Part shown: positions 1 through 33,912 of the stretch, one piece after another | Position numbering within the stretch: the stretch's first letter is position 1 | Layout of the letters: the number at the start of each line of letters is the position of its first letter | DNA from: a virus | DNA: 36,399 bases | Virus record (IMG/VR): IMGVR_UViG_3300002231_000329 | Coordinates: 22,576-58,974 of that record | Strand: one strand, 5' to 3' | Made by a program: the position numbers and the translations under genes | The notes under the pieces: model-generated | The model's input: only the letters and a program-made list of their open reading frames with translations | Databases searched by the model: none | What the model was told of the DNA's origin: nothing

Positions 1-354
1 GGGGATTCTTATCGAAAATCCAATGTCTAAGTACGGTATTGTCAATACTTATACTATCTTTGTTGTCAATTGTATTGTTTTTCCTTGTTTTTAAGGGTAA
101 GTGGTGCATTTGATTCGAATAATAAGGATAACATCATAGATAGTTTAAACAATGTCAGCAGAAGGCTGGATAGCGCTTTTTATGAGAGGAGCTTATTTGT
201 TGATTCTCTAGAAATTAGAATTTTGGAAATGAGTGTTTCTCGAATAGAGGATTCGATTGTTATTAATGAGTTAAAAATAAGAAGAGATGAAGAAATCAAT
301 GCTATTGATACTATGGATCATCACGATCTGTATCTGTTTTTCTCAAACCAATAA
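1..354 (+). CDS. Membrane-anchored coiled-coil protein, partial and frameshifted (possible i-spanin-like)
   Basis: The left edge cuts this gene. Reading from base 3 gives an open frame with a strongly hydrophobic stretch (about bases 27-95, Leu/Ile/Val/Phe-rich) followed by Lys-Gly-Lys-Trp, a typical inner-membrane anchor; it stops at 111-113. The next frame continues without a stop from there to 354 as a charged, heptad-like Asp/Ser/Arg/Glu-rich region. Joining them needs one base removed near 105-112. The product would have one N-terminal membrane helix and a coiled-coil ectodomain, the general shape of phage i-spanins (Rz). Its last 68 bases overlap the next gene in another frame, as spanin genes often do. 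Spanin identity is inference from architecture only; no motif was recognised. It could be any small membrane protein. Confidence 0.4.
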
Positions 355-727
355 TGATACGCTTACTGTATCACTTCAACCAGATAGTGTTTTAACAGAC
401 TCTATGGGTCTTCCTACACATTTTGCATGGAGAGTAAGTGATCAAGTTCCTTTGATAGCTGAACATGTCATTAGATCCAAGGCTAGTAGGGACATAGAGG
501 TAAATCAAGATAGTTCTATAATTAGATGTGATTCAATCATAGATTATCAGTCTTTGTTGATAAGAACTCAGAAATATCAGATCAACAATAGGCAGGAGGT
601 TATTGCTACGAAAGAAAATATTATCTCAGAGACTGAGGATGAGGTGAAAAAATGGAAAATAAGAGCAATATCATGGCCATCTGGTATATCGGGTGGATTC
701 ATATTGCTGTTAATGATATTGATATAA
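287..727 (+). CDS. Small exported protein with N-terminal signal and C-terminal membrane helix (possible lysis accessory)
   Basis: 146 aa from the ATG at 287. The N-terminus is Met-Lys-Lys followed by about 15 hydrophobic residues (Leu/Ile/Cys/Phe) ending near Ser-Gln, which looks like a signal peptide; Cys residues lie near the cleavage region, but the lipobox is not canonical. The middle is polar with a Gln/Arg/Glu-rich coiled-coil stretch, and the last 20 residues form a second hydrophobic helix after a Lys-Lys-Trp-Lys cluster. The gene starts inside the preceding coiled-coil gene and ends in a TAATG overlap with the next. Overlap, size and topology suggest a lysis or envelope role, but that is inference; the function is unknown. 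Confidence 0.5.
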   Translation: MKKSMLLILWIITICICFSQTNNDTLTVSLQPDSVLTDSMGLPTHFAWRVSDQVPLIAEHVIRSKASRDIEVNQDSSIIRCDSIIDYQSLLIRTQKYQINNRQEVIATKENIISETEDEVKKWKIRAISWPSGISGGFILLLMILI

Positions 728-2965: not shown

Positions 2966-4519
2966 ATGCGAAATAAACCTGATTTTAAATTCTTCGTTCC
3001 AGCCACTATTGAAAAATCGAAGGGGAAAGATGGAAAAGAGGAAATGCTCATCCAAGGCGTTGCTAGTACTAGGGACGAAGATAGTGATGGAGAATTTCTA
3101 GACCCATCTGGGTATGACCTTGATTATTTTAATAAGTATGGATTTTTTAATTGGCAGCATAGAGCCAAGCAAGATCCTACAGCTATTGTAGGGGAGCCGG
3201 TTGAGGCAAAGATTAAAAACGGTCAATTTTGGGTAAAAGGTAAGTTGTTTGAAGACAACCCACTGGCAGTAGGTATCTATAAGTTAGCTAAAAGCCTTAG
3301 TTCTAGTAATCGCCATCTTGGTTTTTCTATCGAAGGAAAAGCTTTAGAAAGAGACATTCTTAATCCAAAGATTGTTAAAAAAGCTAAGATTACTGGAATA
3401 GCCATTACACCAACACCTAAGAATTCAAATACATTCATGGATATCTGTAAGGGTGAGTATCAAGAATATGATGATGATTACGAGGAGGAGGCATCTATTT
3501 TTGATTCGAAGACCGCCAATGGAGGTACTGAGCATCTACTAGATATAACAACCCCAACGGGTGATAGAATTATAGTTACCAAATCTTATGAGGCAAAAGT
3601 AATTGCAAAATCATTGAACACGGAAAATGGAGCACCTTTAGCTAAAGAATCTTTAGAGGGCTCACCTAAAAATACTTCTTATAGCAAGAAGAAGCCTAGT
3701 AAGGCTTTAACTAAAAGTGAGGTTTATGTAGATATATTCAAGTCTTATCCAGATGTAGAATTAGATGCAGCTAACCAAATTTTTGATCTAATAGTGGACG
3801 TACAAACAAAAATTAATAGTGAAATGAAAACTCCAACTCCAGAAGCAATTGAGGCAGCTAAAGAGATTTTAAAAGCAGCTTCCAATGATATCGAAAAAGC
3901 AGCCCCCCAGGGAAGTGATGCAGATTTTCCGGTACACAACCAAGGAGGTTCAGCCAATCAAGGGGCTACAGACGATGCCAATGGTGCATCTCAGTCAGAT
4001 TTTGACAAAGCATGTGGCCTAATGAAGGCGTGTGCAGCTGATAATAAAGATATGTCTAAGGAAGACATGTACAAAGCCGTTAAGGATAAGATGAAAGACA
4101 TCTCAGAAGACGATATGTCTAAGGCTTACGATAAGTATTCTTCTGATATGAAGAAGTCAGATGAGGAAGAAGAAAAAGCTCCTGATGTTGACGATGAGAA
4201 CAAAAAGGACGAACAAGATAAAAAGGATCCAGAAATGAGTAAATCAGAGGAACTTGAGCTTCTTAAATCGCAGCAAAGCGACATTCAGAGTAGGATCGAT
4301 GCTTTAGAAAAGGCAGAAGATACTACTGATAAGCCTGTTGATGACTTGAATAAGTCGGAGGACAATGACATTATTAAGGCAATCAACGCCCAGTCTGATG
4401 TTATGTCTAAGAAATTTGAGGCTATAGGAACTCTCCATGGTAGTTTAAGTGATAATTTAAATAAAGCCTTTAGAGAGATTAGATGCTTTGGAGTCAGAGC
4501 CCCAACCAAAATCTATTAA
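2966..4519 (+). CDS. Prohead maturation protease fused to scaffold, main fragment
   Basis: The first ~165 residues are an HK97 gp4-like (U35-type) serine protease: His65 in NWQHRA, then Ser121 in GFSIEG, then an ITGIAITPTPKN strand, in the order and at roughly the spacing of the family catalytic His and Ser. After about residue 170 the protein becomes a long, very charged Lys/Glu/Asp-rich helical region, typical of a capsid scaffold. Family knowledge: the scaffold guides shell assembly, and the protease then degrades it and trims the MCP. The frame is lost near 4480, where one base must be removed, and the last ~13 residues before the stop at 4519 are out-of-frame. The true protein continues to 4763 (about 599 aa). 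It sits directly before the MCP. Confidence 0.85.
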   Translation: MRNKPDFKFFVPATIEKSKGKDGKEEMLIQGVASTRDEDSDGEFLDPSGYDLDYFNKYGFFNWQHRAKQDPTAIVGEPVEAKIKNGQFWVKGKLFEDNPLAVGIYKLAKSLSSSNRHLGFSIEGKALERDILNPKIVKKAKITGIAITPTPKNSNTFMDICKGEYQEYDDDYEEEASIFDSKTANGGTEHLLDITTPTGDRIIVTKSYEAKVIAKSLNTENGAPLAKESLEGSPKNTSYSKKKPSKALTKSEVYVDIFKSYPDVELDAANQIFDLIVDVQTKINSEMKTPTPEAIEAAKEILKAASNDIEKAAPQGSDADFPVHNQGGSANQGATDDANGASQSDFDKACGLMKACAADNKDMSKEDMYKAVKDKMKDISEDDMSKAYDKYSSDMKKSDEEEEKAPDVDDENKKDEQDKKDPEMSKSEELELLKSQQSDIQSRIDALEKAEDTTDKPVDDLNKSEDNDIIKAINAQSDVMSKKFEAIGTLHGSLSDNLNKAFREIRCFGVRAPTKIY

Positions 4520-4763
4520 CAATCAAATGTTTTTAGAAAAAGGTATTGATCCTAGTCTTAACGCTGGAAATGATGGTAAGATAGTATTGTCGGCTTCCAG
4601 AAATAAGACAGAGATTCTTAAAGCTCTTGATGAGTGTGTTGATATCGAAAAAGCAGAGCATGAAACTTTGGCCACAAACATGGTCTCATATGAGTCTTCT
4701 GGATATCTAACCAAGGATCTCATTTCTGAGTTAGGAAAAACTGGAATTCAGGTTGTTCAATAA
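4488..4763 (+). CDS. Protease-scaffold protein, C-terminal fragment
   Basis: C-terminal ~90 residues of the protease-scaffold fusion, in the +1 frame relative to the upstream fragment. Taking one base out near 4480 yields a smooth joint from a helical scaffold region into a Glu/Pro/Gln linker. It contains a repeat-like pair of acidic helices and ends in a Gly-Ile-Gln-Val-Val tail. The marked start is not a believable initiation site. In scaffolds the C-terminus usually contacts the capsid protein; that role here is inferred. Confidence 0.65.
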   Translation: MESEPQPKSINNQMFLEKGIDPSLNAGNDGKIVLSASRNKTEILKALDECVDIEKAEHETLATNMVSYESSGYLTKDLISELGKTGIQVVQ

Positions 4764-4833: not shown

Positions 4834-6330
4834 ATGTCATTAGGTATTACATTAGATAGCTATGCCAATGGTGCTCAAGACAATGTTGGATTCTCGGGAG
4901 AGGCTTCAGTAGAAAGTCTTCAGCAACTTAATAAGGCGTTAGAGGCAGGTGATATTACAGGTGGAGCCTCAAGAGATTCAGCAGTTCCCGGACAGGGTGC
5001 AGCCCTTAAGGTAGAATCTTTAGAGAGAAATCTGAAATTGATCACCTTTAAAGAACAGGATATCCGTCTTTGGAAGGCAATTCCAAAAATGGCTGCAACC
5101 AACACTGTTGAGGAGTATAACCAATTAGAGAGCTACGGTCTTGATCGAGGTGGATTCAACAACGAAGGAGAGCTTCCTGTTGAAGAGGATTCGACTTATG
5201 TTAGACGTGCTCAGTTGGTGAAGTTCATGGGTGTTACCAAGTCGGTTACTCATCCAATGCAACTTGTAAATACTGCAGGTGTTCCTTCTGCTATTCAGGC
5301 AGAAATTAAGGCTGGTACTATGTGGATTTTGAGAAAAGTAGATAAGTCTTTGACTACTGCTGATTCAACTATTATCCCACAGGAATTCAACGGTCTTTAT
5401 GCTCAGCATTTAAGAGCTGATGTTCATGGTTCTCTTGACGCTTGGCAAGATAGTGAGGTTGTTGTCGATTTGAGAGGTGCTTACCTTACTCAGGGAGATA
5501 TTGAGACAGCTAATGAGGCTATCTTGGAAAACTTTGGTTATGGTTCACTATTGTTCGCTCCACCAAATGTTCTTTCGAACTTTGCTAAAGACTATTACGA
5601 AAAGCAAAGAATCTTACTTGGTAACAATGTTAAGAATGATGGTTTCGTTGCTGGAGGAGTTCCTAAGTCTGTATCAACTACTGTTGGTGAGGTTGCTCTT
5701 CAACATGACATCTTCATGAGAAAAGCTTTTAGTAGAGCTTCTGGTGATGGTGCAACTGCTACAAACGCTCCTACTAATCCTACTGCTGGTGGTACTCCAA
5801 CTTCTGTGGTGGCTGCTGCTCCTGGTTCTAGATTTGATTCAGGATCTGTAGGTGATTACATTTATGCAGTAGCTGCAGTTAATAGATATGGAGAGTCTGG
5901 TTTAGTTCAATTAGGTACTGCTGTTTCTATTATTGCTAATGACGCTGTAGATTTATCATTCAATGATGGTGGTGGTGCAAACCCTGCTACTGGATATATC
6001 ATCTATAGAACTAAGAAAGACGCTGCCGCAACATCTATGTACCCTATTATTACTATTTCTACGGCTGAGAAAGCTGCTGGATACGATGGTGCTGCTGCAA
6101 CGCTAGTGAGAGATAAAAACAGATTCCTTCCAGATACTGACTCTGCATTCTTAATTGAGAATACAGATCAAGTTTGGTCATTTAAGCAATTGGCTCCTTT
6201 GATGAAGATGGATTTAGCGGTGCTTTCGCCTGCTTACAGATTCATGATTCTTCTATACGGAACACCAGTTCTTTATGCACCTAAGAAGATGGTTAGGTTT
6301 ATTAATATTGGAATTCCCAATCCTTTATAG
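4834..6330 (+). CDS. Major capsid protein (HK97 fold) with inserted Ig/FN3-like domain
   Basis: 498 aa, intact. The N-terminal ~65 residues are low-complexity (delta-like) and end near the run ALKVESLERNLKLITF. The segment that follows (IPKMAATNTVEEYN, then a GFNNEGELP loop) resembles the N-arm and E-loop region of HK97-fold capsids of myoviruses. The last ~60 residues (QLAPLMKMDLAV...) return to a capsid-like axial domain. Between about residues 300 and 430 lies an Ala/Gly/Thr-rich beta insert with a GDYIYAVAAVNRYGES motif and a GYIIYRT strand, which reads like a fibronectin-III/Ig-like domain facing outward. Position after protease-scaffold and before a strong terminator supports the call. 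Translation lacks a Shine-Dalgarno; the start follows an AAATTTATTAAA stretch. Confidence 0.88.
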   Translation: MSLGITLDSYANGAQDNVGFSGEASVESLQQLNKALEAGDITGGASRDSAVPGQGAALKVESLERNLKLITFKEQDIRLWKAIPKMAATNTVEEYNQLESYGLDRGGFNNEGELPVEEDSTYVRRAQLVKFMGVTKSVTHPMQLVNTAGVPSAIQAEIKAGTMWILRKVDKSLTTADSTIIPQEFNGLYAQHLRADVHGSLDAWQDSEVVVDLRGAYLTQGDIETANEAILENFGYGSLLFAPPNVLSNFAKDYYEKQRILLGNNVKNDGFVAGGVPKSVSTTVGEVALQHDIFMRKAFSRASGDGATATNAPTNPTAGGTPTSVVAAAPGSRFDSGSVGDYIYAVAAVNRYGESGLVQLGTAVSIIANDAVDLSFNDGGGANPATGYIIYRTKKDAAATSMYPIITISTAEKAAGYDGAAATLVRDKNRFLPDTDSAFLIENTDQVWSFKQLAPLMKMDLAVLSPAYRFMILLYGTPVLYAPKKMVRFINIGIPNPL

Positions 6331-6353: not shown

Positions 6354-6389
6354 AAAGGAGTAAGTTATTTTTAACTTACTCCTTTTTTT
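6354..6389 (+). terminator. Rho-independent terminator after the MCP gene
   Basis: A perfect 14-bp stem (6354-6367 with 6372-6385) closes a TTTT loop (6368-6371) and runs into a T tract ending at 6389. It begins 24 bases after the MCP stop codon. This is the strongest hairpin-plus-U-tract I found in the window. The stem is A/T-rich at its base but has a GGAGTAAG core. Confidence 0.85.
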
Positions 6390-6429
6390 GTATATTGAGA
6401 ATCTATTAAATAATGAAAATCATTTTGAA

Positions 6430-6909
6430 ATGGCTAAATTAATTTCTGTTAAAGAGGGAAGGGCTAATAAGTCCATATCTCTAGCGATAGTAGGTGAAGT
6501 TAAGTTTAATGAAGACTGCACTGCTGAAATATCTGATTCTCTTGCTGAGAATCTCTCTAATCACCTATACCCACATCCAACTCTTGGATATTACGTAGAT
6601 GGATACCCAACTCAGTTGGTTTCTGAAGAAGAGAATGAAGAGGGGGATCTTGAAGAAGATTTGGATGATGACAATGAAGGTGATGAGGTGTCTGATCCCA
6701 TCATACCAGATGATGCTCCATCTAGTAGTGAAGTAAAGATTGAAGAAGAAGTCAATGAAGGTCCAACCGATGTTGATCTATTAAAGGACATGAATACTGC
6801 AGAGCTTAGAGAATTTGCAAAGACTTCGGGATTTCCTGAGGAAGAGTGGAAAGACAGAAAAAATCCAGCTTCTCTTAGAAAATACCTTTCTGAAAAATTA
6901 GATGATTAA
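6430..6909 (+). CDS. Acidic virion-associated protein with C-terminal HeH domain
   Basis: 160 aa from the ATG at 6430; the longer version from a TTG at 6388 begins inside the terminator tail and is unlikely. Residues 1-65 form a small beta-rich domain. Residues 70-110 are an extremely acidic Glu/Asp linker. The last ~45 residues (DLLKDMNTAELREFA, then EEEW, then a Leu-Arg-Lys-Tyr-Leu helix) match a helix-extension-helix (HeH/SAP-like) fold, common in phage proteins coded next to the MCP. Family role is thought to be nucleic-acid or capsid binding. The gene overlaps the following connector gene by 8 bases. Function in this phage is inferred from position. Confidence 0.6.
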   Translation: MAKLISVKEGRANKSISLAIVGEVKFNEDCTAEISDSLAENLSNHLYPHPTLGYYVDGYPTQLVSEEENEEGDLEEDLDDDNEGDEVSDPIIPDDAPSSSEVKIEEEVNEGPTDVDLLKDMNTAELREFAKTSGFPEEEWKDRKNPASLRKYLSEKLDD

Positions 6910-7291
6910 ATACACCATCAAATACGGCAAGAACAGTGGGCTCGTTATGAGTCCATCTGAGCTTGAGGAAACATATTTCTTTGGAACTCCAATATTGGAT
7001 CCAAATGGGAATCCTATGCCTGATGAAACAATAGCCTTTTATATCGACTCTGCTCAAAAAGAAGTTGAGAAGTGGCTGAATTTGAAATTATCAAAACAAG
7101 TTATTCAAGAAGAGAAAGATTTTTCTTGGAATGATTTTGAGTCATGGGGATACGTCCGAACAACCTACCCAATGGTAGAGCCATATAGTTTGTTTGGATA
7201 CATATCAGACGTACAACAAATAGAGTACCCACCTGAGTGGCTTAGTGCTAGAAAAACTAGTGATGGAGAACTATATCCAAGGCACCTATAG
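6902..7291 (+). CDS. Head-tail connector protein (gp6-like), N-terminal fragment
   Basis: N-terminal half of a connector of about 260 aa. It contains an N-terminal strand, a P-x-E-L-E-E-T-Y-F helix and a helix with a hydrophobic heptad (FYIDSAQKEVEKWLNLKL), the usual core of gp6/gp15-like adaptor proteins that sit under the portal. After about base 7265 the reading frame shifts; one base must be removed near 7262-7268 to continue. The final residues before the stop at 7291 are out-of-frame. It follows the HeH gene with an 8-base overlap. Confidence 0.6.
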   Translation: MIKYTIKYGKNSGLVMSPSELEETYFFGTPILDPNGNPMPDETIAFYIDSAQKEVEKWLNLKLSKQVIQEEKDFSWNDFESWGYVRTTYPMVEPYSLFGYISDVQQIEYPPEWLSARKTSDGELYPRHL

Positions 7292-7682
7292 TCTAGTGCC
7301 AGGTAATAGTTCGGCTAGAACTAATGCAATAGTGTATTCCGGAAAAACCCCTCATTTAGGATATCTAGGGAGAACTCAGATACCCAATTATTGGAGGATA
7401 ACCTACTGTACTGGGTTTAATAAGATACCTAATGATCTCAAGAACTTTATAGGGAAGTTGGCAGCCATTAATATCTTCCATATTTTAGGAGACTTAATAC
7501 TGGGTGCAGGAATCGCAAGTCAGTCCATAGGTATCGACGGATTAAGTCAGTCTATATCAACAACATCTTCAGCTACTAACGCTGGGTATGGTGCTAGGAT
7601 TATAGGGTATAGTGATGATTTAAAGAGGCAAAAAACCACACTAGAAGCTTATTATAGAGGATTTAATATGACCGTTGTTTAA
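7245..7682 (+). CDS. Head-tail connector protein (gp6-like), C-terminal fragment
   Basis: Continuation of the connector begun at 6902, in the next frame; the true reading enters at about 7265. A YWRITYCTGF strand and the following helix (DLKNFIGKLAAINIF) fit the end of the connector fold, and the Gly/Ile/Ser-rich segment after it resembles a flexible loop before a last charged helix. It ends two bases before the ATG of the next gene. The assignment rests on position and fold-like pattern, not on a signature motif. Confidence 0.55.
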   Translation: MLEKLVMENYIQGTYSLVPGNSSARTNAIVYSGKTPHLGYLGRTQIPNYWRITYCTGFNKIPNDLKNFIGKLAAINIFHILGDLILGAGIASQSIGIDGLSQSISTTSSATNAGYGARIIGYSDDLKRQKTTLEAYYRGFNMTVV

Positions 7683-8536: not shown

Positions 8537-8939
8537 TGTCGACATATCAGAAGTTGCCAATGAATTTCTTCTTTCTGGAGATCAAATAACAACTCTTAGA
8601 GAGAACATAGTAAGTGGTCTTACTTCTTCGCTGTATGAGCAATGGTTGTTGGCTGCTGGCAAGAACTTAAGATCAACTAAAGCCCAATATCAAAGAGGTC
8701 TAGTGATAGTTGATGAGGGGAGGTTTAAAGGAGGTGTGATGCTTACCGGAACTCTTCCTAACATGGTGGAATCCGGAGCAAGTGCTTTTGATATGAAAAA
8801 CGGCTTTTCTAAAAGCTCAAAAGTAAAGAGAACCAAAGACGGCGAATGGTATTTGACTATACCATTTAGGTTGGCATCTCCGGGAGCTCTTAGCAGAATC
8901 AGAGATATTCTCTGGAATTGTTCCCACAAGCATATATGA
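8523..8939 (+). CDS. Neck/tail-completion protein, N-terminal fragment
   Basis: N-terminal part of a protein of about 260 aa. After an N-terminal helix come helices containing LYEQWLLAAGKNLRST and a VMLTGTLPNMVESGASAFDM segment, a pattern typical of HK97-gp10/virion-morphogenesis proteins that complete the neck. The frame breaks near 8887: with one base removed the protein continues into a SGIVPTSIYELVK motif, which is far more natural than the Trp/Cys/His-rich tail ending at 8939. Confidence 0.6.
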   Translation: MIPINVDISEVANEFLLSGDQITTLRENIVSGLTSSLYEQWLLAAGKNLRSTKAQYQRGLVIVDEGRFKGGVMLTGTLPNMVESGASAFDMKNGFSKSSKVKRTKDGEWYLTIPFRLASPGALSRIRDILWNCSHKHI

Positions 8940-10291: not shown

Positions 10292-11320
10292 ATGGCAACT
10301 AATTTAGTCTTTGGAAATAAGACAATTTCAGAACCGGGTGCTTATTCACGCATCCTGAGTGGAGTTAAAAACCCTACAGTAGACCTTTCTTCTGGAAATG
10401 TACTAATAGTAGATACTGGAAACGGCGCTTTATTTGGCGGTGGTTCAGGTATTTCTGGGGAATTAGCTCAAGGAAAAGATTCTATTTATTCTTTCGATAA
10501 CATAGCCGACTTCCAATCGTTTGTTCGTGGTGGTGTTTACTATCATTTGGCACCCCTATTGTTTCAACCAGATGGACCAACCCTACCAGGTGCTCCTCTA
10601 GTTACTATAGTGAGAGGAGCAACAACAACTGCTGGTACAATTACTTTTACATTTGCCTCTGGAGGTCAAATTGTAATTAAACCAAAAGCAGAGGGATATG
10701 GTGCTAATGGTATATTGGGAGATGAAGTAAGAGCTGTTGGTACAATCGACATCACTGCAGCAGTGGATGATGGAGTTATATCAGCCCAAGTAGATGCAGT
10801 ATCTATTGGTGATTATACTGTTCAGGCAGGAGATACTCCGGCTGATGCAGCAGAAGGCGTAGCAGCAGCTATTGTAGCATCTCAAGGCCCTCAAGGATAT
10901 GCAGCTACTTCAAATGGATCTTTAATAACTATTCTTGGTATTCCAAATGATGGAGCAGCAGCCAATTCTAAAGTTCTTACTGCTTCAATTACGGGTAGCT
11001 CTACTGCCGATGTGGCAACCTTTTCGGGAGGTGTAGATGGAAGTAAACTTACTCAGGGATTTGGTTCTCAATTAGAGTCAGGCATTATCGATACAGCTAA
11101 GTTTAGATTCTCTTTCTATAGAGGGGCTTTTACTGGAGATGCAGCTGATGACCTTCCATATGGGGAGATAGAGCCATCAGAAACACAACCAGTATTGGTG
11201 TCAAGATCATCAGAGATTTCTAGTGTTGATGAGTTTGTTGCATGGGCTGAAAGTGATTTTGAGTTTAATCAAAGCTTTGTGATTTCATCAACAATCACCG
11301 GCGTTATCGCAGGTGGGTGA
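10292..11320 (+). CDS. Tail sheath protein, N-terminal fragment
   Basis: First of three fragments of a sheath protein of about 650 aa. The N-terminus (FGNKTISEPGAYSRI) is the classic sheath opening 'x-x-PGxYxx', followed by beta-rich domains with a GGxxGISG-like glycine segment and an Ala/Gly-rich inserted domain near residues 150-245. The frame ends at a GGG TGA site at 11315-11320; removing one G in this run gives A-G-G-D-L-T-T-Y and continues into the second fragment. Sheath subunits polymerise around the tube and contract at infection. Confidence 0.85.
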   Translation: MATNLVFGNKTISEPGAYSRILSGVKNPTVDLSSGNVLIVDTGNGALFGGGSGISGELAQGKDSIYSFDNIADFQSFVRGGVYYHLAPLLFQPDGPTLPGAPLVTIVRGATTTAGTITFTFASGGQIVIKPKAEGYGANGILGDEVRAVGTIDITAAVDDGVISAQVDAVSIGDYTVQAGDTPADAAEGVAAAIVASQGPQGYAATSNGSLITILGIPNDGAAANSKVLTASITGSSTADVATFSGGVDGSKLTQGFGSQLESGIIDTAKFRFSFYRGAFTGDAADDLPYGEIEPSETQPVLVSRSSEISSVDEFVAWAESDFEFNQSFVISSTITGVIAGG

Positions 11321-11753
11321 TCTTACTACGTATGCTGACATTAATTTATCGGTAGGGGGAGTTGAGAATTATGGTTCAACACAATTGAATGATGTTTTAG
11401 ACAATATTCAAGATGTTGATTTCACATATATTTTAGCTAATGACTATGGAGTAGGTGCTCAGTCGGCAAACAACACCAGAATCCAATCGTGGTTAAATCA
11501 AGAATCTAGGTTTGATAGATTTATGTTTGTGGGAGCTCAAGCTACTCAAACAAACTACAACAACGGGGTTAATAGCTCTGTAGATACAGCCAACTACTAT
11601 GATGATGAAAAGGTTTTAGTAGTTCATGGAGGACCTAGGTTAAGATCTAGAATTACAGGATCAGGATATAGAGAGTACTCTGCTCTATCGAAAGCAGCAA
11701 TGGTTTTGGGTAGAATAGCAGGGCTTGAACCACAAGTACCAGGTTACGTTTAA
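11313..11753 (+). CDS. Tail sheath protein, middle fragment
   Basis: Middle ~140 residues of the sheath. The stretch NNTRIQSWLNQESRFDRFMFVG and the following VLVVHGGPRLRS strand belong to the core sheath domain, where subunits carry a V-h-G-G motif before the C-terminal domain. The frame ends after GLEPQVPG; with one G removed at about 11742-11744 the line reads P-V-T-F-K-T-I-D-I, a typical entry to the C-terminal sheath domain. The ATG at 11313 is not a real start. Confidence 0.8.
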   Translation: MGDLTTYADINLSVGGVENYGSTQLNDVLDNIQDVDFTYILANDYGVGAQSANNTRIQSWLNQESRFDRFMFVGAQATQTNYNNGVNSSVDTANYYDDEKVLVVHGGPRLRSRITGSGYREYSALSKAAMVLGRIAGLEPQVPGYV

Positions 11754-12246
11754 GACCATTGATATTGTGGGTGAAGTTCATGATATGAACGAGAAAGAAA
11801 GAGTTACTGCATTAAGCAATGGTCTTCTTGTGACTAGATTCGATCCTGATATTAATGGATTTAGCATCCTACAGGCTGTGAATTCTCTTCAGGAAAATTC
11901 TTTCTTAATCAACACCAACGGGACTTCTCATGAGCACCAAATAGGTAGAATTAAGGCTCAACTTAATAAGGAGATTACGGTTAACGCAAGAGTTCAGCTT
12001 CTTGGTCAAGAAGAGGGGTCAAACTTGAATACCTTAGCTCCTATTGATGTGAAGCAGTGGTTGGATGGGTATCTTACCACCAAAACAGCAACTGATAATG
12101 ATGATAATTTAATTATCTCATTTGAGAACATCACCGTAGTTCAACAGCAAGACGCTTATAAGATCACTTATGGATTTACTCCAAATGGTCCTGTGAATAA
12201 ATTGTTGTTTACTGGATTTATTTTGGATTCAAACTTATCAGCATAA
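11725..12246 (+). CDS. Tail sheath protein, C-terminal fragment
   Basis: C-terminal ~170 residues of the sheath, correct from about 11744 onward. The recognisable features are the GEVHDMNEKER segment, the LxxGLLVTRFDPD turn and the closing strand pair that links sheath subunits (ending GFILDSNLSA). It ends 16 bases before the tail tube gene, the normal order for contractile tails. Confidence 0.8.
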   Translation: MNHKYQVTFKTIDIVGEVHDMNEKERVTALSNGLLVTRFDPDINGFSILQAVNSLQENSFLINTNGTSHEHQIGRIKAQLNKEITVNARVQLLGQEEGSNLNTLAPIDVKQWLDGYLTTKTATDNDDNLIISFENITVVQQQDAYKITYGFTPNGPVNKLLFTGFILDSNLSA

Positions 12247-32482: not shown

Positions 32483-32944
32483 ATGCAATTAACAGTTAAG
32501 ACAAATATCAATCAACAGGTTTCTAAAGCCTTGGGAGATGACATTATACTCAACAACGCCTTTTCAGGTTCTGATATATCTGATGATGGCTTTGTTGTTA
32601 AGAATGTTGATGTGAAGCAGTTTTCTTTCGACACAACATCTGGACCCTTGTTTTCGATTGATTTGTTTGATTACATACAATCTCCACCAGAAGATATTTC
32701 ATTTCTTCATATATATTGCTTCAACTCTACTGTGTCATCTACCTCAGTGGAGTGTCCAATTCCAGTTAGATTTGATATATCGATATCTGATGGAACCAAT
32801 ACAATTGTTTTAGGAAGCATGAGTCAGTATGAAATGGCTAATTTAGATACATTTCCAGCTGCCGGTGAGGTATCTATTTCTAATGTTGATATTAGTGATG
32901 CAGATAATACTGCTGCATTGATTATTATAATCGGATCCAAATAA
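32483..32944 (+). CDS. Small beta-rich structural protein after the fibre
   Basis: 153 aa, starting two bases after the fibre stop and overlapping the next gene by one base (TAATG). Beta-rich with Ser/Asp/Ile repeats and a hydrophobic last strand. No enzymatic or chaperone motif. Probably a fibre tip, connector or chaperone for the long fibre; function unknown. Confidence 0.48.
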   Translation: MQLTVKTNINQQVSKALGDDIILNNAFSGSDISDDGFVVKNVDVKQFSFDTTSGPLFSIDLFDYIQSPPEDISFLHIYCFNSTVSSTSVECPIPVRFDISISDGTNTIVLGSMSQYEMANLDTFPAAGEVSISNVDISDADNTAALIIIIGSK

Positions 32945-33912
32945 TGAGTAGTATCTTAAGACTATATTATACTGGTGCTGAAAAAGCATTTGAGTCACAA
33001 GTAAAACCCTCTCTTTCATTAGGTGGCTATTTTTCAAGTAGCATGATTCCAAATGACTATTTAGGTAATCTATTTGGAGATATCACAAAAACAACCATAG
33101 AAAGAGATACTGGAGAGTATATTGGAGTTGTTTTGAAGAACGAAACTGGACTTAATGTAGAAGATGTTCTTATTACATATGAGTATGGTGATGAACCACA
33201 GGGTAAGATGGAGATATCTGCAATTACTCCTAATATCGATTCTTGTGGCGACCCATTTATGGAGTCAATACCCAATCGATATTCCTCCCCCTTATCAGCT
33301 GCTTTTTCTGAAGCCAATGTAGCGAAGGCGAAGGTTAAAATGCAGATTACTCAGGGAGCCAATGATGGAGATGTTATTGATGTTTTCGCTGATAGCATTT
33401 TAATAGCCACTACAGCACCCTTTGTGGGAACCGTAGGCATAGAGGCCGTAATTGATGCAATAGTGGAAGCATTAAGTGGAGATGCTACTTATACAGCAGA
33501 AAAATCCACTGAAGAAGTTATTACTACAGAGATTGTAAATAATCATGGAGCTCCAGCGCAGCGCAGAACCATATCATATGTTTATTCGGTGATTATTAGT
33601 AGAAATGATTTCGGAGTGAATACAGAGTTAATGGAATTACAGAACTCCTCTACAGATATTACCCCTCCACAAAACATGTCTGGAGGAGCTGATAATACAG
33701 TAAATATTGGAAATATTGAAATAGATGAATACATTGCCATCTGGTTTAAGAGAACCATGACTGATAGAGCAAAGGAGATAGCTGCCGGAAAGGGAGATGC
33801 TAGCTGTGAGTCTTTAGTGGCTGACTTTGTATCAGAGGATCAAAATAAGATCCCAACAGAGGAGGAAATATGCTTGATGATAGACTGGACTGAAATTCCG
33901 GCTGTACCGTAA
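32944..33912 (+). CDS. Tail/baseplate-associated structural hypothetical protein
   Basis: 322 aa. N-terminal YYTGAEKAFESQ, then a beta domain (EYIGVVLKNETG), and a repeat-like region near 130-185 with IDVFADSILIAT. C-terminal part IEIDEYIAIWFKRTM then a helix, as in proteins that wrap tail tips. Only context (last gene of the virion region) supports a virion role. Function unknown. Confidence 0.48.
   Translation: MSSILRLYYTGAEKAFESQVKPSLSLGGYFSSSMIPNDYLGNLFGDITKTTIERDTGEYIGVVLKNETGLNVEDVLITYEYGDEPQGKMEISAITPNIDSCGDPFMESIPNRYSSPLSAAFSEANVAKAKVKMQITQGANDGDVIDVFADSILIATTAPFVGTVGIEAVIDAIVEALSGDATYTAEKSTEEVITTEIVNNHGAPAQRRTISYVYSVIISRNDFGVNTELMELQNSSTDITPPQNMSGGADNTVNIGNIEIDEYIAIWFKRTMTDRAKEIAAGKGDASCESLVADFVSEDQNKIPTEEEICLMIDWTEIPAVP

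Follow-up and report, generated by a model that had tools for sequence, protein, structure and literature searches.

Extra beta domains have been described in the coat proteins of several tailed phages. Excerpts of PMC7602432, PMC10172136 and PMC11476376 report such domains in phi29 (BIG2), P22 (I-domain) and crAss001 (I-domain). The BIG2 insertion domain of the phi29 major capsid protein (MCP) meets the gp8.5 trimer, according to an excerpt of PMC7602432. In an excerpt of PMC10172136 the E-loop domain of crAss001 is said to add wall thickness and stability, and the I-domains of P22 and crAss001 are described as alike. The closest solved relatives of the protein analysed here are the MCPs of SPO1 (gp6.1, 9vel) and phage 812 (5lii), and no paper describing the corresponding domain in either of them was found in a limited literature search.

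The DNA analysed here, referred to as the window, is a stretch of 36,399 nucleotides that forms part of a 102,083-base virus record. Its MCP gene is found on the plus strand at 4834..6330 as a single intact open reading frame of 498 amino acids. A profile search matched the protein to the major head protein family PHROG 752 over residues 22-493 (E 1.9e-79), and among sequences of solved structures the best match was SPO1 gp6.1 over residues 19-493 (E 1.2e-76), with an alignment that is unbroken through the inserted domain described below. Two further solved sequence relatives, 5lii of phage 812 (E 8.4e-19) and 9row (E 9.5e-19), are also colinear through the insert. By whole-protein homology the window protein is a member of the SPO1-like MCP family, and it has the trait of that family, an HK97 fold with an Ig-like insert at the matching site, both in the comparison with 9vel and in an alignment of 13 MCPs. 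A Pfam scan of the whole protein gave only SU10_MCP at an E-value of 0.0082, below the cut-off of that family. The nearest named phages by MCP identity are five Bacteroides DAC phages (47%), Bacteroides phage SJC03 (46%) and Chryseobacterium phage MA9V-3 (46%), followed by Bacillus phages of Herelleviridae at 40% or less.

An AlphaFold2 model of the MCP, built with 57 metagenomic relatives, has a mean pLDDT of 80.1, and its least confident positions fall mostly within residues 1-70. The HK97 core before the insert (4999..5733, plus strand, residues about 56-300) was delimited by the secondary structure of the model and by the HK97 chain 2fs3_A, which aligns from model residue 67. Judging by the order of the secondary structure elements, this part probably contains the E-loop strands, the spine helix (residues 150-175) and the helices and strands of the A domain. 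The C-terminal core (6142..6327, plus strand, residues 437-498) is modelled as a long beta hairpin. Between them is an Ig/FN3-like beta-sandwich at 5749..6129 on the plus strand (residues about 306-432), delimited by the model, by structure comparison and by 57 of 57 aligned relatives. Seven strands are predicted in it (317-326, 340-349, 358-366, 371-377, 387-392, 402-409 and 424-427), and the mean pLDDT is 90 or higher in 12 of the 13 ten-residue blocks spanning residues 301-430. When the insert was modelled alone, the same seven strands were recovered within one residue, with a mean pLDDT of 91.6 and a pTM of 0.86. The models thus show a separate seven-stranded beta-sandwich placed late in the HK97 chain, between the A-domain helices and the final beta hairpin. 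Because the sandwich sits inside an MCP, it is present in one copy per capsid subunit.

The first-pass annotation had proposed a Gly/Ala/Thr-rich beta insertion at 5745-6150 with ordinary capsid sequence before and after it, and had named a structure prediction with an extra beta-sandwich as the way to check this. The prediction has such a sandwich with high confidence, both in the whole protein and in the isolated domain. Alanine, glycine and threonine make up 52 of 127 residues in the insert and 55 of 245 in the preceding core. Both flanks are standard capsid sequence, as is seen from the PHROG 752 match and from the alignment of 240 of the 280 residues of 2fs3_A to the model over residues 67..494.

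Structure comparison places the whole protein close to the two solved phages. The model aligns with 9vel over 381 residues at 3.2 A (VIA Z 34.2; model 69..498 on chain 53..464) and with 5lii over 371 residues at 3.7 A (Z 25.5). For the insert alone, the best structural match is the domain of the SPO1 capsid itself (9vel, Z 13.8, 118 aligned residues, 2.3 A). SPO1 gp6.1 is like the window MCP along the whole protein, including the insert, with an identity of 32-37% depending on the method, but it lacks the GYDGG loop that precedes the E-like strand in the window protein and its close relatives. In phage 812 the insert is found at the matching place with 16% identity in the structural alignment, and the NRYGES motif is lost there. 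The homology and colinearity of the insert with the domains of SPO1 gp6.1 and the phage 812 MCP are thereby shown. The extra beta domains of the other phages differ from it. The I-domain of crAss001 is located in the E-loop while the window insert follows the A-domain helices, and phi29 has a Big_2 domain in its MCP while Big_2 is absent among the 15 Pfam families matched by 58 members of the window family (the HMMER filters hide most matches above 0.1).

The second-best structural match of the domain is IG1 of the crAss001 muzzle protein gp44 (7qok, chain 155..283, Z 7.9, 112 aligned residues, 4.4 A). This is a domain of a tail protein, inserted between propeller blades and with 13% identity, and with a Z below 8 the match may reflect just a common arrangement, as the structure tool itself warns. 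Chains of alpha-latrotoxin (9go9, 9goa) match at Z 6.4-6.7. FN3 domains account for 24 of the 50 rows of structure matches (19 by title and five known as FN3 scaffolds) at Z 3.2-4.0, with 59-71 residues aligned at 2.2-4.0 A, which is also in the range of the tool's warning. Two rows titled C2, 1wfm (104 residues, 4.4 A, Z 3.8) and 1wfj (96 residues, 4.1 A, Z 3.5), make a C2-like description of the insert possible.

The label Ig/FN3-like given in the first-pass annotation stands in so far as the insert is a beta-sandwich of that type; the domain gives no Pfam fn3 score and its strand order appears to be non-canonical. There was no match to fn3 (PF00041) at an E-value of 1 or lower in the 102-kb record, and fn3 was absent among the 15 Pfam families matched by the 58 members at E-values up to 10, a range in which the HMMER filters hide most matches above 0.1. 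PF24489 (Ig_J_second) was matched by 7 of the 58 members with a best E-value of 0.012, which fits an Ig-like domain. In all 24 FN3 rows the match ends at residue 127-129 of the domain model (MCP residues 430-432), where the final strand stops. In the 12 rows with single-domain FN3 chains numbered from near 1, the match ends at chain residue 61-85 of 92-121, and about 50 residues of the domain model are left out in between. The F and G strands form the C-terminal part of an FN3 chain, and the match ranges therefore leave this part of the FN3 domains unmatched.

The F-G-like hairpin appears to be found early in the insert instead, at 5851..5931 on the plus strand (residues 340-366, motif GDYIYAVAAVNRYGES), before the B-C-C'-E-like strands at 5944..6114 (plus strand, residues 371-427, motifs VDLSF, GYIIYR and VRDKN), which are the strands matched by the 24 FN3 rows. 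The domain profile matched titin over its residues 30-79, approximately, at a whole-sequence E-value of 0.0026, where the best single stretch reaches only E 32, and fibronectin over the same residues at 0.19 (best single stretch E 3.9), where the would-be B-C stretch scores 0.9 bits and is no evidence alone. Isolated F-G fragments from three of five members matched PF24489 at E-values from 0.0036 to 0.13, under the cut-off and not including the window's own fragment, and these matches lie at positions 69-94 of 105, the C-terminal end of that family. None of five B-to-E fragments matched any Ig or FN3 family. Together the FN3 match ranges and the early, weak F-G-type matches favour A-F-G-B-C-C'-E as the order of the strands; relative to FN3, the F-G hairpin would then have been moved between A and B. 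A pure circular permutation of FN3 was also considered, but the VIA ranges suit the order A-F-G-B-C-C'-E better. The apparent rearrangement is possibly shared with the crAss tail domain. The insert is thus like FN3 domains in the structure matches and the weak F-G motif matches, and unlike them in the lack of a PF00041 match and in the early position of that motif. A literature search turned up no title relevant to FN3 domains in MCPs or to permuted Ig folds. A metal site at the invariant residues N350, E354, D418, D427 and N429 was dropped as a candidate because SPO1 lacks D418 and N429; FN3 domains, too, can have G-E-S and D at such positions.

The insert is widespread. An alignment-based scan of viral contigs gave at least 552 relatives, while a single-sequence search of the contigs found nothing. 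Among the best 80 of these relatives, which were kept, all 80 have a capsid reading frame that aligns to the query; 61 are distinct and 57 were aligned. The insert is present in all 57, with a length of 122-137 residues over the region 306-430. Both search patterns, which lie in the NTVEE and VWSFKQ stretches of the window protein, are located outside the insert, so relatives without it could have matched, and the set represents the nearest 80 of at least 552. A wider alignment of 13 MCPs (the window, two metagenomic and ten from named phages) includes phages of Bacteroides, Chryseobacterium, Bacillus, Staphylococcus, Pseudomonas, Aeromonas, Thermus and Leptospira. The domain is found at one shared position in these proteins, and residues A312, V346, R392 and D427 are invariant. 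The most distant seven have 21-25% identity to the window protein, and the Leptospira member is weak with a domain match at E 0.5. A search with the domain only gave 22 phage records at E-values of 1 or lower. In at least 20 of them the domain is in the MCP, as 11 are MCPs by whole-protein match and nine are annotated as capsid or head proteins; the other two (Thermus phage phiMa and Leptospira phage LE1) are unnamed genes of capsid length. The comparison across related phages suggested in the first-pass annotation finds the insert in every relative that was aligned. It is no special decoration of this phage, as it belongs to a wide MCP family for which the SPO1 and phage 812 structures are solved.

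The gene just upstream of the MCP matches the head maturation protease family phrog_1028 (E 2.1e-44). It is located at 2966-4763 and has a long C-terminal extension whose reading frame is broken close to the end. Single protease reading frames of 585 and 613 amino acids are found in two relatives (L015 and L024), and MA9V-3 has a 1.6-kb coding sequence before its MCP (L004:4333-5931). SPO1 differs by having separate genes for the protease (3.2), the scaffold (3.3) and the MCP (6.1), and DAC19 has two genes at the protease position. The length of the broken reading frame suggests a scaffold in the window, separate or fused, and a protease-scaffold fusion is a plausible form of it. Frame splits at about 1340-1360, 4474-4488, 7264-7293 and 8887-8891 occur in genes that are single reading frames in relatives, namely one upstream gene, the protease-containing gene and two genes after the MCP, with the MCP itself intact. 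These splits look like contig indel errors or decay. The gene at 6388-6909, directly downstream of the MCP, has an acidic middle and a C-terminal stretch which, by eye, we take to resemble a HeH/SAP-type helical motif; it has no PHROG or Pfam match. At the corresponding position SPO1 has gp6.2, which matches DUF7349 and gave no capsid chain at E-values of 1 or lower in a search against PDB. The frames at 10292-11320 and 11313-12246 are by position a likely tail sheath region spread over three frames, with a Gly/Ala-rich stretch (VSIGDYTVQAGDTPADAAEGVAAAI) to which a stretch in the protein at 32944-33912 is similar by eye. This candidate (10292-12246) had no PHROG match, and its first part had only a sub-threshold Pfam match. 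In Thermus phage Lalka8 an annotated CRISPR repeat region and a TnpB-family gene follow directly after the MCP gene (L095:3132-5195).

The regions of the MCP differ in their rate of change. Mean identity to the window protein among the 57 relatives is 0.38 in the N-terminal 55 residues, 0.54 in the core before the insert, 0.47 in the insert and 0.69 in residues 437-498, which is the best conserved among the large regions compared. When disjoint pairs were chosen by core distance, the ratio of nonsynonymous divergence (pN) between insert and core had a median of 2.82 (range 1.09-12.11) and exceeded 1 in 21 of 21 pairs, with a pooled pN of 0.196 in the insert and 0.074 in the core. Since selection on core distance biases the ratio upwards, pairs were also chosen by other measures: the median was 2.64 by whole-protein distance (above 1 in 21 of 21 pairs), 2.42 by insert distance (17 of 17) and 1.94 by pS (23 of 25). 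Synonymous divergence was about equal, with a median insert/core pS ratio of 0.95 in the core-distance pairs and 0.89-0.96 across the pair choices. At equal synonymous divergence, amino acid replacement is thus about 1.9 to 2.8 times as fast in the insert as in the core, the factor varying with the choice of pairs. Control blocks of 125 core residues compared with the remaining core gave pN ratios of 0.54-1.81, and the N-terminal arm (residues 1-55) compared with the core gave 1.20-2.03. When all pairs are considered, the arm and the insert are equally variable (mean distance 0.529 for the arm, 0.513 for the insert and 0.362 for the core). The insert was faster than the arm in 18 of 21, 20 of 21, 12 of 17 and 15 of 25 close pairs chosen by core distance, whole-protein distance, insert distance and pS, respectively.

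The pN/pS of the insert was 0.11-0.63 in 21 of 21 pairs, values that are rough because many pairs have a high pS (about 0.6 when pooled, uncorrected), and this suggests relaxed constraint rather than domain-wide positive selection. Insert swapping was rejected as the chief source of the divergence because pS in the insert is not raised. Core and insert distances are correlated (r 0.70, with none of 2000 permutations as high), and core blocks correlate with the remaining core at 0.81-0.89; the lower value for the insert leaves room for some exchange, and an occasional exchange of inserts is possible. The variation is also uneven within the domain. With loops assigned to poles by FN3 geometry, an assignment made after the alignment had been viewed, the mean entropy was 1.24 at the pole with the FG, BC and C'E loops (31 positions) and 2.04 at the pole with the A-F, G-B and C-C' loops (26 positions; Mann-Whitney p 0.0014).

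Whether the stretch is an insertion at all can be judged from capsid folds in which it is bypassed. The HK97 chain 2fs3 (model 67..494 on chain 124..383) has a span 168 residues shorter than the model, and Pa223 (model 62..496 on chain 21..317) one that is 138 residues shorter. The spans are 101-110 residues shorter in four SU10 entries and 153 and 155 residues shorter in the encapsulins 6x8m and 8won. An integral, merely diverged part of the A or P domain would not be expected to give an excess of 101-168 residues over all these folds, nor to fold by itself as confidently as the isolated domain does. Such a reading could draw on the presence of the insert in every aligned member of the MCP family, with no gain or loss seen within it, and on three family 2B encapsulins (9bhu, 9bje and 9bix) with spans as long as that of the model, which are uninformative on insertion. 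It is hardly credible on balance, and the outcome that the first-pass annotation had named as contrary to its proposal, a stretch integral to the P or A domain, was looked for in the prediction and not seen.

The most probable role of the insert is that of an Ig-like structural reinforcement with an apparently moved F-G hairpin. It would sit on the outer face of the capsid once per subunit, where the conserved loop pole (NRYGES, DGGGxNPAT and GYDGG) would dock on its own or a neighbouring capsomer and stiffen the lattice, while the variable pole (C-C', G-B and A-F loops) would face the solvent. An outward-facing insert is plausible given the replacement rate above that of the core and the presence of one conserved and one variable pole, but a domain that tolerates substitutions and points in another direction could change rapidly too. 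A task mainly in assembly or folding instead of stabilization of the mature shell is a less likely alternative that deserves some weight. The I-domain of P22 has been proposed as a folding or capsomer-specifying domain. The late position of the insert in the chain and its retention in all aligned relatives would suit such a task, and an excerpt of PMC10172136 also places the P22 I-domain within the A-domain, but change faster than that of the core is less expected of a scaffold-binding face.

The first-pass annotation had noted that such decorations can bind glycans or mucus and that the domain may face outward on every hexamer. It appears improbable that adhesion is the main role of the insert, with an outward Ig-like domain attaching to glycans on the host surface or in mucus. 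Glycan or mucus binding has been proposed for Hoc-type decoration proteins, and the Ig-like fold, the probable exposure and the faster change than in the core are in line with it. The domain nevertheless occurs in phages whose hosts are as unlike as Thermus, Bacillus, Pseudomonas and Bacteroides, at least 20 of the 22 phage records with a domain match carry it in the MCP, the pN/pS values give no sign of diversifying selection at the level of the domain, and two of the solved sequence relatives, 9vel and 5lii, are titled as capsid structures. Searches for a glycan- or mucus-binding family gave no support: the window's own domain matched no family in Pfam or NCBIfam, and, apart from PF24489, matches across the 58 members were scattered over one or two members each and read as chance. 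The two adhesin-like hits were at chance level, GbpC (glucan-binding protein C) in 2 of 58 members with a best E-value of 0.015 and the NCBIfam antigen I/II adhesin in 2 of 58 with 0.11; others included DUF2761 (1 of 58, E 0.00056) and an MBG domain (1 of 58, E 0.0065). Any Ig-like domain that is exposed could in principle bind glycans.

The insert appears to be a regular component of the shell in a known capsid family rather than a special glycan-binding add-on. This settles a natural misreading, in that the Ig-like insert is common to one broad MCP family and is solved in SPO1 and phage 812, and the apparent rearrangement of the strands may explain why an ordinary FN3 model misses it. A more speculative view, which we consider doubtful, is that the insert belongs to a loop-insertable FN3-like class with F-G before B-C-C'-E that recurs in unrelated virion proteins, such as the MCPs of phages with diverse hosts and the crAss tail muzzle, and that it here forms a fast-changing outer skin that would adapt the capsid to its surroundings. 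The insert differs from the core in its rate, which singles it out as a capsid region that is free to change.
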